From Desulfuromonas sp. SDB (GTDB lineage Bacteria > SDB-A), in the NCBI GenBank assembly GCA_001412365.1, contig LKUE01000337.1, positions 1-13,333 on the forward strand: a stretch of DNA of 13,333 nt, read 5' to 3'. The stretch's first letter is position 1; each line of letters opens with the position of its first letter. Made by a program: the position numbers and the translations under genes. Shown here in pieces: positions 3,691-8,219 of the stretch. Below the pieces are notes generated by a model. It saw nothing but the letters and a program-made list of their open reading frames with translations. It had not been told where the DNA came from and made no database searches.

Positions 3691-5406
3691 CTACCAGGGA
3701 TACAAATAATTTACCAGTGCCCCTACAGACACACTGGAAATAATCATAATAACCGCTGCTTTGATTAAATCTTTAATCCCCAATTCCTTAAACAATACGG
3801 AAAAGGTGGCTACGCAGGGAAAATACATAGCCAGCACCAAGGAGGCTACCACCAGCTGTTTTTCAGTCAATCCCAAAGGAATTAACATTCCCACCGCAAT
3901 GTCCTTTCTCAAAAAACCCATCAACAGAGCGCCAATAGCCTGCTGAGGCAGACCGAGGACATTGGTTATTAATGGCTTAGCCAGATTTCCCATCACTTCA
4001 ATAATTTTAAAGGTATAAAGTAAATTTGCAATCACCACTCCCAACAAAACAAAAGGAACTGCTTCTTTTACAAACCAGGTAATTCTGATAGCAATTTTTT
4101 TTACCAAGCCTTGAAAATAAGGAATCCGATAGGGAGGTATTTCAACAAATATTTCATAGGATTCTCCTTTTAAAATCCGGTTTAAAATTACTCCCAATAC
4201 AATCCAAACCAGGAATAATGTGCCGTAAACTGTAGCTAAGCTTTTTATGCCAAATTCACCCACCAAACCTACTATCATTGCCTGTAAAGCCATGCAGGGT
4301 ACTGCAATAGCCATCAAGGTCATGGCAATAAATCTTTCTCTTCTTGATTCCAGTATCCTGGTGGCAAGAGCTCCGGGAACATTGCAGCCTAATCCCAGCA
4401 GCATGGGAACGATGGCTAATCCATGCAATCCCAAGCGATGCAGAATAGTGTCCACCATTACTGCCAACCGGGGCAGATAACCGGAATCTTCCAAAAACGA
4501 AAGAACCAGGTAAAAGGCAACAATGTAGGGAAGGACTGCAGCCAAGGGTACGTATAAGCCAGTAGTAAGAACACCGAAAGATTGACCAAAGTCAATTTCA
4601 CCCTCCACCAGACGTCCAATTATCAAATCATGAAAAATTCCTTGAGAACCCATTATCCCGGATAACCTCATCATCAGAGGTTTCCATCCCATTTCAAATA
4701 TTGGATCCATTACATAGTTTATCAGTCCTTCTCCTACCAGCTGGATAATTTTAAATGTAGCCAGCAGTACAATAACTGCAAGGGGAATACCGGTGACTGG
4801 CTTTACCGAGATATCTCCAATCCGCTCTAAAATTGTGTGATGACGATGTTGTAAATTTTGAGTTTGTTTTACAATTGATCCGATTAAATCCCAGCGGTGT
4901 TGATCCTCAAACTCCAGGGAAGGAATTCGGGCTTGAGGTATCATATCCACAAATGTTTTAATTCCTTCACCGGTAACCGCACAAGTGGGAATACAGGGAA
5001 TTCCCAATATTTCCTCGAGTTTTTTATGATCAATGTCAATCCCTAAATGGTGGGTTTCATCCCAGAAATTCAATATCAAAATCATCGGTTTGTTTAATTG
5101 GATAAGCTGCAAAGTTAGATTTAAATTCCTCTCCAAATTGGTAGCTTCAACCACATTTACCAGAACTGCATCCTCATGTTCTTCAATCATCTTCACTGCA
5201 ATTTCATCTGATGTGGAGGCAGGTTCAAGGGAATAAATTCCGGGAACATCTATCACTGTTGTGGTGGTGTGATCATATTTCATTTTTCCCTGGGTAAACT
5301 CCACAGTGGTTCCGGGATAATTTGAGGCAATTACATGTGCACCGGTTAAGCGGTTGAAAATAACACTTTTACCCACATTGGGATTGCCAATTAGCAGAAT
5401 TTTCAA
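3691..5406 (-). CDS. feoB: Ferrous iron transport protein B (FeoB), short form
   Basis: 571 residues, an inner-membrane Fe(II) importer with a cytoplasmic GTPase head. G motifs: GNPNVGKS (7-14), Thr33/34 in YPGTT, DVPG (53-56), NFWD (113-116) and CAVTGEG (142-148). From about 206 the membrane core follows, with both Gate regions: SFLEDSGYLPRLAVMVD and GLGCNVPGALATR (Cys341) in the first, and GFLRKDIAVGML and YFPCVATFS (Cys531) in the second. The start is TTG, giving MKILLIGNPN, the normal FeoB N-terminus; TGGAG lies seven bases upstream and TTGA overlaps the feoA stop. Only about 45 residues separate the G domain from the first membrane helix, so the helical (GDI-like) domain is shorter than in typical FeoB, and it carries a local QHRHH. 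It is the last gene of fur-feoA-feoB. Confidence 0.96.
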   Translation of the reverse strand: MKILLIGNPNVGKSVIFNRLTGAHVIASNYPGTTVEFTQGKMKYDHTTTTVIDVPGIYSLEPASTSDEIAVKMIEEHEDAVLVNVVEATNLERNLNLTLQLIQLNKPMILILNFWDETHHLGIDIDHKKLEEILGIPCIPTCAVTGEGIKTFVDMIPQARIPSLEFEDQHRWDLIGSIVKQTQNLQHRHHTILERIGDISVKPVTGIPLAVIVLLATFKIIQLVGEGLINYVMDPIFEMGWKPLMMRLSGIMGSQGIFHDLIIGRLVEGEIDFGQSFGVLTTGLYVPLAAVLPYIVAFYLVLSFLEDSGYLPRLAVMVDTILHRLGLHGLAIVPMLLGLGCNVPGALATRILESRRERFIAMTLMAIAVPCMALQAMIVGLVGEFGIKSLATVYGTLFLVWIVLGVILNRILKGESYEIFVEIPPYRIPYFQGLVKKIAIRITWFVKEAVPFVLLGVVIANLLYTFKIIEVMGNLAKPLITNVLGLPQQAIGALLMGFLRKDIAVGMLIPLGLTEKQLVVASLVLAMYFPCVATFSVLFKELGIKDLIKAAVIMIISSVSVGALVNYLYPW

Positions 5407-5669
5407 CTATTTTCTCCAGGCTTAACTTCTTCCACCAATATTTTCCTAGCCATGCGGTGACCAACTGCAATATCAGTTTTGCCGCATCGAAAAACCACCG
5501 GACCCCGCATCCACTGTGAGCTGACTTTAGTTATAATTTTACCTTCAAGAATACCCATGGATTGCAACTTTTGGTTTATTCCATGGTGCCGGTGATGGTG
5601 ATCCTTGATGGATATAATTTTACCCTGCTGACCACTTTTTAAATCAGCAAGGGTTTTTAAAGTTGACAA
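5403..5669 (-). CDS. feoA: Ferrous iron transport protein A (FeoA), SH3-like
   Basis: 88 residues, the size of a FeoA core domain. FeoA is a small cytoplasmic SH3-like protein needed for FeoB-dependent Fe(II) uptake. The pattern G-K-I-I-S-I, then KLQSMGILEGKIITKV, then AVGHRMARKI fits the family, and the MG-I-x-x-G-x-x-I segment is characteristic. The start is TTG: AAGGAG six bases upstream fixes it, and there is no nearby in-frame ATG. Its stop overlaps the feoB start by 4 nt. Unusual is a histidine cluster at residues 24-29 (DHHHRHH), where many FeoAs have a Gly-rich turn; it might bind metal. It follows fur by 17 bp. Confidence 0.93.
   Translation of the reverse strand: MSTLKTLADLKSGQQGKIISIKDHHHRHHGINQKLQSMGILEGKIITKVSSQWMRGPVVFRCGKTDIAVGHRMARKILVEEVKPGENS
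5414..5418 (-). promoter_or_regulatory. Ribosome binding site deciding the TTG start of feoB
   Basis: TGGAG on the minus strand, seven bases before TTG at 5404-5406. It lies inside the end of feoA and supports TTG as the feoB start, with the four-base TTGA overlap. Confidence 0.7.
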
Positions 5670-5675
5670 TTTTAT

Positions 5676-5681
5676 CTCCTT
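5676..5681 (-). promoter_or_regulatory. Ribosome binding site deciding the TTG start of feoA
   Basis: AAGGAG on the minus strand, six bases before TTG at 5667-5669, is a near-perfect Shine-Dalgarno and makes the TTG start of feoA convincing. Confidence 0.8.
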
Positions 5682-5686
5682 AAATT

Positions 5687-6130
5687 TTATTTATTTTTTG
5701 TTGATTTAAAACAATCCTCACAAATTCCGAAAATTTCCACAGCATGTTTATTGATTTTAAAATTATTTTTTTTAGCAATTTTAATTATCCTTTCTTCTAA
5801 TCCAGAATCAATGAATTCAATAATCTTTCCGCAGTTTTGACAGACTAAGTGTTCATGATGTTTCTTTTTCACAGTTAACTCATAGTAGGATTTACTTTTT
5901 CCCAAACGGATTTTCCTGATCAAACCTGAACTCTCCAGTAATTTAACTGTACGAAAAACGGTTGCTCTGCCTATGGAAGGATCTTCTGATTTCATCTGAA
6001 CATAAAGTTGCTCAGCATCAAAATGGTAGGAAGTTGAAAGAATGTAATTTAAAATACACTCACGCTGTGCAGTCAGCAGTAAATTATTGTTTTTCAGAAA
6101 ATTACAAAATTGTTTTTTAATGTCATTCAT
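5687..6130 (-). CDS. fur: Fur-family metal-responsive repressor (probably Fur)
   Basis: 147 residues from the ATG at 6128-6130. An in-frame TTG nine bases earlier would add three residues but has its AGG only one base away, whereas the ATG has AGG ten bases and GAG four bases upstream, so the ATG is chosen. The N-terminal winged helix includes the recognition helix in GRATVFRTVKLLESSGL (54-70). The dimerization/metal part has HHEH (91-94), the zinc pairs C97xxC100 and C137xxC140, and a late His129. With Fe(II) bound, Fur dimers repress iron-uptake genes. Genomic position supports Fur rather than Zur or PerR: feoA and feoB follow at 17 bp and with a 4-nt overlap, and a Fur-box-like dyad lies just upstream. 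PerR cannot be excluded from sequence alone. Confidence 0.92.
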   Translation of the reverse strand: MNDIKKQFCNFLKNNNLLLTAQRECILNYILSTSYHFDAEQLYVQMKSEDPSIGRATVFRTVKLLESSGLIRKIRLGKSKSYYELTVKKKHHEHLVCQNCGKIIEFIDSGLEERIIKIAKKNNFKINKHAVEIFGICEDCFKSTKNK

Positions 6131-6155
6131 TTTACTCAAACCTGGTCTTTGAGAT

Positions 6156-6215: not shown

Positions 6216-8219
6216 TCAAGGTTGATTGCTTCTATAACGAATAAACCAAGTACTCTTTTTAATCACTGGATGAAGCTCCAGCCAAAGTCCATCCGGTAAA
6301 TACTGAACAGTATTACAATAAGAACAACTGGCATTACGGGGAGTTTCAGAAGTAATGGTCAAAGGAGCTCCGCATTTAATACAGGTTATTGCTATTGATT
6401 TTTTCTTTTCTTGATCAATTTCTTTCTGTCCATATAAAATACCACCAAACACCTGTTCAGCATTGTTAATCCAGTTAAGTTCAGGGGGAACGGGATAAGT
6501 TGAATTGAGATTACCGCAATTTTCACATTTAATGGGATTAACTGAACCGGTAGGGACAAAATCAACATCCAATTCTTTTTTACATTTAGTACATCGGGGA
6601 GAGGAATTATTCATGGTAATAATTAGATCTTGGTAATTGAGATAACGGGACTGACCCAGATCGGATTTAATGACCGTATTCCAAAATTTATGATCTAAAT
6701 CCACTGAGGACAAACAGGAATTACATTTAATTTTAGAGGTTAAGCCATTGACAAAGACCGGCTGACTACAGAAAGGGCATTCAAATTCAATTTGATAGGA
6801 GCGGTAGAAAGGCATAACTGATTCCAGCCGTTCCTGAGCTGCTTTTTTAACTTCGGGATGTGAAGATTGATCCGCCACCTGTTTAATTAAATTCCGGTCA
6901 TCCAGAACTTTTACCGCCAAAACAGACAAAGCGGTTCGGAAGGAGTTAAGAGCAATGTCCTTTACCATATTCTTGTTCTTAACTTTTACTAGAGCTGCTT
7001 TGCATACCGATAGTTCTTTCTCCTGTTCCGCCAGCGACTTTAACCATGAATCACTTGGATTACTCATCGCGTATATGGAAGCGATTCTTCCCCGGGGATG
7101 CTTTGCGGTTTTGGCGCATTCACTCAGTAAAGATTGGGAAGTAATTAAACTGGCTAATGCCATTGCCACATCTTCACAGGATTCATCATTAAGTAATTGG
7201 GAAATAGTCATCTGATTATCCGGAACAAGTTTTTTAACTGCATTCAGTTTAACTCTGCTGGAATCAGATTTTTGTATCGCTTTTACCAAAGTATCCTGCA
7301 GGGTAGCCTTGTTCACCAGGGCATTTAAAATATCTTCGTCTGTCTCATGCTGTACTCGGCTGAGCAGATAATACTGATCCGGATCCTGCAGATAGGAGAT
7401 AGCAGCTGCTCTAAACTTTGGATTATATGCTTTCAAAGAAATATCTTTTAAGTAATTCTGATTATGTATTTTATCCACTACATCTCTAGCTCCCTGAGAT
7501 TGGGGGCTGCTCAGAGCAATGTCGTAAAGTAAATCCTCCTTATCAATTCGGGAAGCCAGCCAGGGATAGAGATCTACTAAATGTTTATCTTTCATCATCT
7601 CTGCCATCATCTTCTGATCAGTCATTCTTTCAACTGCAGCAGTCCTAATATCCATAGATGGATCAGTGTAGGCAATTTCTTTCAATTTTGAATTGTTTTC
7701 AATTTTAGCTAAAGCTTTCAATCTGAAATCTCTATCCGAATGTTTAATTGCCGGTCGGAAAAAATCTTTTAGTTTCCATCTCCCTGTAAATTTTCTCTTC
7801 TGAACATAGAAAAACAAAAATATGGAGATGCAGATAATTGACCAGATAATAAATGGTTGAGGATTTATGTGGATAAGTTCAATCAATGAGAAAAATGCCT
7901 GAGGAATGCTTTCCGGTTCCTTAACAAAATAATAACCCCATCCTCCGGAATATCCTGCACTTGCACAGCCCAGAGCAAATTGACCGATAGCCATAATTGC
8001 TCCCAGAGCAAATTGACCTAAGCAGCCTAAGCCAATGGCAAACTGAGAAATACAGATAAATCCAGCTCCAAATTGAGTAATTGCAATTACTCCCACTCCG
8101 AATTGAGCTATGGTAATAAATCCTACTCCAGAAAAGCCAATGGAAATAATTCCATTGGCAAAAAAGCCCACTGATATCAAAGGCTTACCGAATATCTTAA
8201 ACTTCGTATCCAGACTCAA
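6216..8219 (-). CDS. Membrane-anchored HEAT-repeat / triple zinc-ribbon protein with N-terminal pentad repeats (function unknown)
   Basis: 667 residues; I do not recognise a named family. Residues 10-95 are an uncharged Gly/Phe/Ile-rich stretch with a small residue every fifth position. Residues 123-139 form a strong transmembrane helix followed by basic residues (QKRKFTGRWK), so the rest is probably cytoplasmic. Residues about 160-465 are alpha-helical units of roughly 20-30 residues of HEAT/ARM-like type, for example around 163-175, 189-201 and 425-440. The C-terminus has three zinc ribbons: C481xxC484 with C499xxC502, C543xxC546 with C565xxC568, and C613xxC616 with C632xxC635. The start is TTG with TAGGA seven bases upstream; an in-frame stop lies four codons before it and the next Met is residue 76. 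A scaffold or sensor role is possible. The gene diverges from the secreted protein gene and ends just before the fur promoter. Confidence 0.85.
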   Translation of the reverse strand: MSLDTKFKIFGKPLISVGFFANGIISIGFSGVGFITIAQFGVGVIAITQFGAGFICISQFAIGLGCLGQFALGAIMAIGQFALGCASAGYSGGWGYYFVKEPESIPQAFFSLIELIHINPQPFIIWSIICISIFLFFYVQKRKFTGRWKLKDFFRPAIKHSDRDFRLKALAKIENNSKLKEIAYTDPSMDIRTAAVERMTDQKMMAEMMKDKHLVDLYPWLASRIDKEDLLYDIALSSPQSQGARDVVDKIHNQNYLKDISLKAYNPKFRAAAISYLQDPDQYYLLSRVQHETDEDILNALVNKATLQDTLVKAIQKSDSSRVKLNAVKKLVPDNQMTISQLLNDESCEDVAMALASLITSQSLLSECAKTAKHPRGRIASIYAMSNPSDSWLKSLAEQEKELSVCKAALVKVKNKNMVKDIALNSFRTALSVLAVKVLDDRNLIKQVADQSSHPEVKKAAQERLESVMPFYRSYQIEFECPFCSQPVFVNGLTSKIKCNSCLSSVDLDHKFWNTVIKSDLGQSRYLNYQDLIITMNNSSPRCTKCKKELDVDFVPTGSVNPIKCENCGNLNSTYPVPPELNWINNAEQVFGGILYGQKEIDQEKKKSIAITCIKCGAPLTITSETPRNASCSYCNTVQYLPDGLWLELHPVIKKSTWFIRYRSNQP
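7950..8192 (-). repeat. Tandem ~30-bp coding repeat (decapeptide/pentapeptide units) in the HEAT-repeat protein
   Basis: Residues 10-90 are units of ten, consensus F-[GA]-x-G-x-I-x-[IL]-x-Q, with Phe at 10, 20, 40, 50, 60, 70 and 81 (Ser at 30), and one inserted residue before 81. Each unit splits into two pentads, with a small residue at 18, 23, 28, 33, 38, 43, 48, 53, 58, 63, 68 and 73, then 79, 84 and 89. At DNA level the codons for x-Q-F recur about every 30-33 bp. The spacing fits a pentapeptide-repeat-like beta-helix or a Gly-rich membrane element; which of the two is not decidable by eye. Confidence 0.8.

Follow-up and report, generated by a model that had tools for sequence, protein, structure and literature searches.

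The first 99 residues of a 667-residue protein encoded in the window (the whole stretch of 13,333 nucleotides analysed here) are one member of a widespread bacterial domain superfamily that carries no name, and the protein itself is an unusual fusion within this real, conserved and under-described superfamily. The domain was present in 23 of 386 sampled whole genomes (about 6%) and has neither a family model nor a structure, which makes it a visible annotation gap. Regarding its role, the proposal that a hydrophobic beta-solenoid anchors the cytoplasmic HEAT/triple-zinc-ribbon scaffold at the membrane stands, in our judgement, evenly balanced between right and wrong.

The gene, its protein and the periodicity of the repeat stretch

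The gene starts with a TTG codon at 8219, with AGGA eight bases upstream, and encodes a repeat domain followed by a membrane helix, a HEAT superhelix and three zinc ribbons. Its features are as follows:

6216-8219, minus strand: whole gene, 667-residue protein plus stop (open reading frame and translation)
8184-8219, minus strand: N-terminal cap, residues 1-12 (TKFKIFGK, with PL continuing at 13-14), matching the family motif K..fG.PL
7923-8183, minus strand: uncharged pentad-repeat stretch, residues 13-99
8056-8130, minus strand: DNA tandem repeat within the pentad stretch, 30-bp unit (10 residues), 2.5 copies (Tandem Repeats Finder score 80)
7866-7910, minus strand: helix, residues 104-118 (AlphaFold2 helix 105-118), probably interfacial
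7803-7859, minus strand: membrane helix, residues 121-139 (hydropathy 2.09; AlphaFold2 helix 121-139), then QKRKFTGRWKLK
6819-7748, minus strand: HEAT/ARM-type superhelix, residues 158-467 (AlphaFold2, Foldseek)
6231-6809, minus strand: triple zinc-ribbon module, residues 471-663 (three CxxC...CxxC pairs)

The stretch at 7950-8192 (residues 10-90) had been singled out in an earlier note for its lack of charge, and residues 13-99 indeed contain no Asp, Glu, Lys or Arg, the nearest charged residues being K12 and K100. The small residue reported there at every fifth position is likewise borne out by the listing of positions: 18, 23, ... 73 read G G G G A G T G S G G G, and G follows at 79, 84 and 89 after a one-residue slip. 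What had been overlooked is a second small position in each pentad, as G, A, S, T or C stands at all 12 phase-0 positions and all 11 phase-3 positions between residues 18 and 73, with counts of 0, 2 and 1 in the other three phases. The chi-square of these phase counts (45.8) was reached in none of 20,000 composition-preserving shuffles, and a phase signal as strong appeared in none of 3,000 shuffles in a test open to all periods from 2 to 15. Phase counts were used instead of Fourier power at period 5, which is uninformative because two small residues per pentad shift the signal to 2.5. The Phe described as recurring every ten residues does so (40, 50, 60, 70 and 81), preceded each time by Gln (39, 49, 59, 69 and 80), a joint recurrence that none of 20,000 shuffles equalled, and residue identity at distance ten is 0.35 versus 0.11 in shuffles (z 7.3). 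The stretch is rich in Gly (19 of 87 residues) and poor in Leu (5 of 87), none of its 19-residue windows exceeds a hydropathy of 1.78, whereas the membrane helix 121-139 reaches 2.09, and helical periodicity is absent, all in agreement with the view that this is not an ordinary transmembrane helix.

The membrane helix, helical repeats and three zinc ribbons that had been read downstream are all real, as seen from hydropathy, from AlphaFold2 and Foldseek, and from the Cys pairs, respectively. The membrane helix is followed by the basic stretch KRKFTGRWKLK, which would mark the positive-inside side. The AlphaFold2 model of the protein (alignment of 44 sequences, mean pLDDT 86.6) contains a superhelix of helix pairs at 158-467, where the ten-residue blocks between 161 and 470 have pLDDT values of 89-98, and Foldseek matches this region to armadillo/HEAT proteins, among them PP2A and condensin subunits. 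The tandem antiparallel helix pairs typical of a HEAT/ARM superhelix are present in this confident model with its Foldseek matches, and Pfam HEAT_2 scores 19.8 bits, below threshold. The zinc ribbons are formed by C481/C484-C499/C502, C543/C546-C565/C568 and C613/C616-C632/C635, and their module ends in YLPDxLWxxLHP....WF.

Distribution and fusions of the domain

A whole-protein search of 60 genomes returned full or near-full orthologues in three other genomes of the same family (L002 and L003 at 43-44% identity, and L004, which is partial), together with small proteins of 178 and 189 residues that match the N-terminus alone. In a single-sequence search with the window protein, the stand-alone relatives, or solos, L005 and L006 are matched at E 2e-9 and 3.5e-9. 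A five-row N-terminal alignment then served as query for a species-level genome scan, which gave 145 relatives, 80 of them kept, from more than 20 phyla. By their record names, the kept relatives belong to Omnitrophota, WOR-3/Stahlbacteria, TA06, several deltaproteobacterial groups, Armatimonadetes, Acidobacteria, Gammaproteobacteria, Planctomycetota, Kiritimatiellaeota, Lentisphaerae, Elusimicrobia, Hydrogenedentota, Aminicenantes, Krumholzibacteriota, Delongbacteria, Nitrospirae, Poribacteria, Acaryochloris, Anaeromyxobacter and others. The family profile A3, of which the window protein is itself a row, matches this protein at 2.5e-29. Plasmid searches gave two weak relatives only, one of them an annotated XRE regulator that carries the domain on a plasmid of Pusillibacter faecalis.

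The short, charged cap K/R..fG.PL, which reads TKFKIFGKPL in the window protein, lies shortly ahead of the first pentads, and its residues G11 and P13 are at least 90% conserved across 44 sequences. Most relatives are solos of 130-190 residues with an N-terminal zinc ribbon (CRECxxxxSxxAxxCPxCGAP) followed by a core of the form E(Y/W)(K/R)SK...G.PLvHiaf......vAKGiIAIGQFgiGliTIaQFGvG..., and the long forms add a C-terminal WS....DPEA..FF helix. Besides this QF type there is a glycine-rich type with the same cap (AKGVIAIGdiAIGlvaIGGvAlGG...), and the two align over 123 columns with an hhalign probability of 99.7% (E 5e-27). Searches of Pfam, NCBIfam and PDB sequences with the window protein and the family profiles left the repeat domain unmatched, and those of the PDB found no solved relative of it; one glycine-rich member matches MinC at 13.7 bits (E 0.04), too weak for use, and a literature text search for the repeat motif found nothing.

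In several relatives the domain is fused to regulatory or enzymatic parts: an XRE HTH_3 domain (L111, 62.7 bits), a HAAS domain (PF22564; 39.3 bits in L135, above cut-off, and 21.4 bits in L136, below it), a protein kinase (Pkinase at 192.8 bits in L110, and L063 by reading its sequence) and a beta-lactamase-type serine hydrolase (L027, 122.3 bits). In L135 the HAAS domain stands in front of a repeat of the glycine-rich type. The L027 gene (3863-5563, Candidatus Electryonea clarkiae) joins the domain and a zinc ribbon to the hydrolase, which has no evident signal peptide, an odd feature for the beta-lactamase family.

The order repeat, membrane helix, HEAT and triple zinc ribbon was found in four of the four genomes examined from the window's phylum, a small one (the G002 copy is cut by a contig end), and in two MAGs recorded as Spirochaetes or Spirochaetota (L015 and L016), and only in these; the 386-genome sample held no other matches in reading frames of more than 500 residues. 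The earlier note could not place this architecture, and no described family with the full order was found in the Pfam and NCBIfam libraries searched. It missed that the repeat is a common, separable domain with a conserved N-terminal cap and relatives in more than 20 phyla. After an interval of 76 bases the gene is followed, on its own strand, by genes for Fur, FeoA and FeoB (window 3691-6139); they are not kept beside the orthologues, which adjoin a gene for a ClC-type channel. Neighbours of the solos are conserved only inside closely related groups, and the neighbourhoods point to no function.

The pentad plan and its candidate folds

Pentads were assigned with a five-state model, neutral for charged and polar residues, on 93 related sequences, whose position counts are non-independent events. 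The resulting plan is small - Gln/hydrophobic - Phe/Ile - small - hydrophobic, which the window protein follows, and two decads span about 20-21 residues. In the QF type, i-2 is G/A/S in 94% of cases, i-1 is Q in 40% (V 13, L 13, I 11), with Asp and Asn outside the twelve commonest residues, i is F/I/V/L in 81% (F 45%, I 18, V 12, L 6), i+1 is A/G/T/S in 84% and i+2 is I/L/V/F in 76%; in the glycine-rich type, glycine takes 85% of i-2. Of the few Asp, Glu, Lys and Arg residues, 115 of 161 in the QF type and 29 of 40 in the glycine-rich type occupy i-1 or i+2, with 40% expected, and their placement is an independent check, as these two positions would face outward by analogy with the pentapeptide-repeat fold.

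Autocorrelation of 76 QF-type cores peaks at lags 5, 10, 20, 21 and 31 (z 20, 43, 12, 25 and 15), the last two reflecting a one-residue slip that recurs regularly, in every other decad, in the long solos, whereas lags 3, 4, 7, 11 and 18 do not rise above threshold. Thirteen canonical pentapeptide-repeat proteins peak at 5, 10, 15, 20 and onwards, and 13 other hydrophobic stretches have no peak. The periodicity is thus kept in homologues, the loss of which had been named beforehand as an outcome that would speak against the reading. The composition of the repeat is also unlike that of membrane helices (Gly 20% and Leu 9% in the family, versus 8% and 18% in the FeoB and TspO-like protein of the window).

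Structure prediction supports the strands in one protein and opposes them in another. In the window protein, AlphaFold2 gives strands at 15-22, 25-32 and 35-42, with a period of ten. Its block pLDDT is about 76-80 in the initial 30 residues and drops under 50 across most of 41-73; the two or three ordinary helices that would have counted against the earlier note's description do not appear. The solo relative L020 (171 residues) is instead modelled as a single 76-residue helix at 70-145, with block pLDDT of up to 93 and a pTM of 0.33. An uncharged single helix of this length is physically unlikely, and it may be a default output for shallow repetitive alignments. With two models in conflict, we infer a beta-solenoid from the pentad pattern, the autocorrelation and the period-ten strands, which make it the best reading.

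According to this proposal, the pentads would wind into a solenoid, the likeliest form being the four-sided one of pentapeptide repeats, and the small i-2 and the Phe/Ile of i would pack inside. Since the residues that would point outward, at i+1, at i+2 and in every second pentad at i-1, are not polar but small or hydrophobic, the solenoid would lie on or within the cytoplasmic membrane at its inner face, or stack there with its own copies, and would thereby anchor cytoplasmic regulatory or scaffold domains. In the window protein, the solenoid and the membrane helix 121-139 would together hold the HEAT superhelix and the three zinc ribbons, a putative protein-binding scaffold, at the membrane surface. 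The membrane helix that adjoins the repeat and the XRE, HAAS and Pkinase fusions are consistent with this location. Regulatory domains such as XRE, HAAS and Pkinase elsewhere carry membrane sensors. The HAAS passage of PMC11237479 states that proteins with this domain usually couple to membrane or sub-membrane domains. Because most solos have no clear separate transmembrane helix, membrane contact is argued from hydrophobicity and from the logic of the fusions. Should the domain prove to be such a membrane-placed hydrophobic beta-solenoid, it would represent a new module for anchoring or sensing.

On the other hand, the repeat could be alpha-helical, either as two to four glycine-packed membrane helices or as one long, oligomerising, Gln-striped helix, with the ten-residue period equal to three helical turns. 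The L020 helix, with pLDDT values of 85-93 in its middle, a hydropathy close to membrane level and a Gln spacing in long solos that alternates between 10 and 11 (mean near 10.5, or 3 x 3.5) are in its favour. We nevertheless regard it as unlikely: the 76-residue uncharged helix would extend beyond 110 A and has no charged loops that could break it up, the period in the window protein is 10 and not 10.5, the strong lags of the family are 5, 10, 15, 20 and 25 and not those of a helix, the glycine content, above all at i-2 of the glycine-rich type, and the few Leu differ from FeoB and TspO, and the model of the window protein itself shows 15-42 as strands and not as helices. If helical, the repeat would follow a striking ten-residue glycine/glutamine code.

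Less likely again is a beta-solenoid that is not membrane-bound, copies of which would stack through their hydrophobic faces to form a filament or a large oligomer in the cytosol that gathers the attached domains, as in bactofilins, which are triangular beta-helices that polymerise into filaments. Pentad pattern and autocorrelation agree with it as well as with the membrane-bound solenoid, most solos carry a zinc ribbon, normally a cytosolic feature, in the absence of a clear transmembrane helix, and the DNA-binding and kinase fusions are cytoplasmic, but the membrane helix directly after the repeat in the window protein and its orthologues argues against it. Whole-library Pfam scans gave no bactofilin match up to E 10. 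More doubtful still is the bolder version of the membrane proposal, a solenoid that truly enters the lipid bilayer and serves across bacteria as a charge-free anchor replacing transmembrane helices. To our knowledge, anchoring in the bacterial inner membrane is thought to be almost wholly alpha-helical, and such a solenoid would be a class of inner-membrane protein fold not yet described.

That the repeat belongs to an ordinary pentapeptide-repeat protein of the PF00805 clan, such as a DNA-mimic gyrase binder, is highly improbable. The register does agree with the pentapeptide-repeat rule in its small i-2 and large hydrophobic i, an agreement that the earlier note missed; its conclusion that this is no standard pentapeptide repeat holds, as the window protein is unmatched by Pfam pentapeptide families up to E 10 (36 solos at 0.1), the hhalign probability against a canonical profile of 13 proteins is about 0, the protein's own genome has no PF00805 match and an acidic surface is absent. 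Finally, low-complexity drift with no defined fold, which the narrow composition might suggest, is hardly credible and is already refuted by conservation: the cap, the invariant Gln and Gly columns and the register are fixed across phyla.

Relation to known repeats, and the zinc-ribbon module

The domain is a variant of the pentad-repeat kind, not one without precedent. With pentapeptide-repeat proteins it shares the pentad register, a 20-residue double-decad period and a variable repeat number; it differs in having Gln or hydrophobic residues at i-1, where the A(D/N)LXX consensus, not followed by the QF type, has Asp/Asn, and in its hydrophobic i+2, near absence of charge, own N-terminal cap and undetectable profile similarity. 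The best reading, drawn from sequence and analogy, is a pentapeptide-repeat plan in which the inward i-2 and i would be kept and the outward i-1, i+1 and i+2 made small or hydrophobic. Mycobacterial PPE-MPTR proteins (Pentapeptide_2) also have hydrophobic, glycine-rich and nearly uncharged pentad/decad repeats. They are distinguished by an Asn-rich NxGxGNxG motif, a PPE domain and ESX secretion, and Pfam Pentapeptide_2 matches neither the window protein nor the relatives scanned.

The pentapeptide repeat is described in the relevant passage of PMC8145042 as a right-handed quadrilateral beta-helix with four pentads per coil. Passing mentions exist of HAAS-fused pentapeptide repeat domains of Firmicutes (PMC11237479, example AOH56696.1) and of transmembrane-linked pentapeptide repeats of Bacteroidetes (PMC12419801); these passages contain no link to the QF type, the zinc-ribbon solos or the HEAT fusions. 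To judge by the description in that passage, L135 is probably of the same kind or superfamily as AOH56696.1. Toastrack (DUF4097/DUF2807) is, in the part of PMC11237479 devoted to it, a right-handed beta-helix domain at the membrane, fused to HAAS and membrane parts and proposed as a sub-membrane assembly platform. The present domain resembles it in placing a beta-helix, here a predicted one, at the membrane with similar fusion partners, and is set apart by a different sequence, with no Toastrack match in Pfam scans, and by the description of Toastrack in that part as following separate transmembrane segments and having no transmembrane or membrane-entering regions of its own.

Two reading frames show the repeat in other forms. 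A 101-residue protein (L138, 1390-1692) has one hydrophobic segment, then GFLAAGDFSLGVFAAGNFAIGIFAAGIFSVG... decads and an LRKR end, and may represent the repeat in its minimal membrane version. In the long version L120 (1336-1923; GAIAIGDTAFGAIAIGRIAGGAIAIGQWAYG), alternate pentads are charged or polar at i-1 and the others read GAIAI, which is the two-face alternation of pentads at its clearest.

The triple zinc-ribbon module recurs in other proteins of its own genome and of its relatives, where it stands by itself (L011), follows a membrane domain (L007) or precedes a beta-propeller-like part (L009, L010 and L013), and it also occurs in a few other families (G242, G260 and G123). With its YLPDxLWxxLHP....W(F/Y) end (6231-6809 in the window; L007, L009, L010, L011, L013, L126 and L128), the module is itself unnamed, and the propeller forms lack the middle Cys pairs. 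Genes for the zinc module with a propeller-like part adjoin a gene for a Sir2-type deacetylase (L008, L009 and L010), with a MoxR/chelatase-type ATPase gene also alongside in L009 and L010, and this grouping recurs in three genomes of the sister genus.
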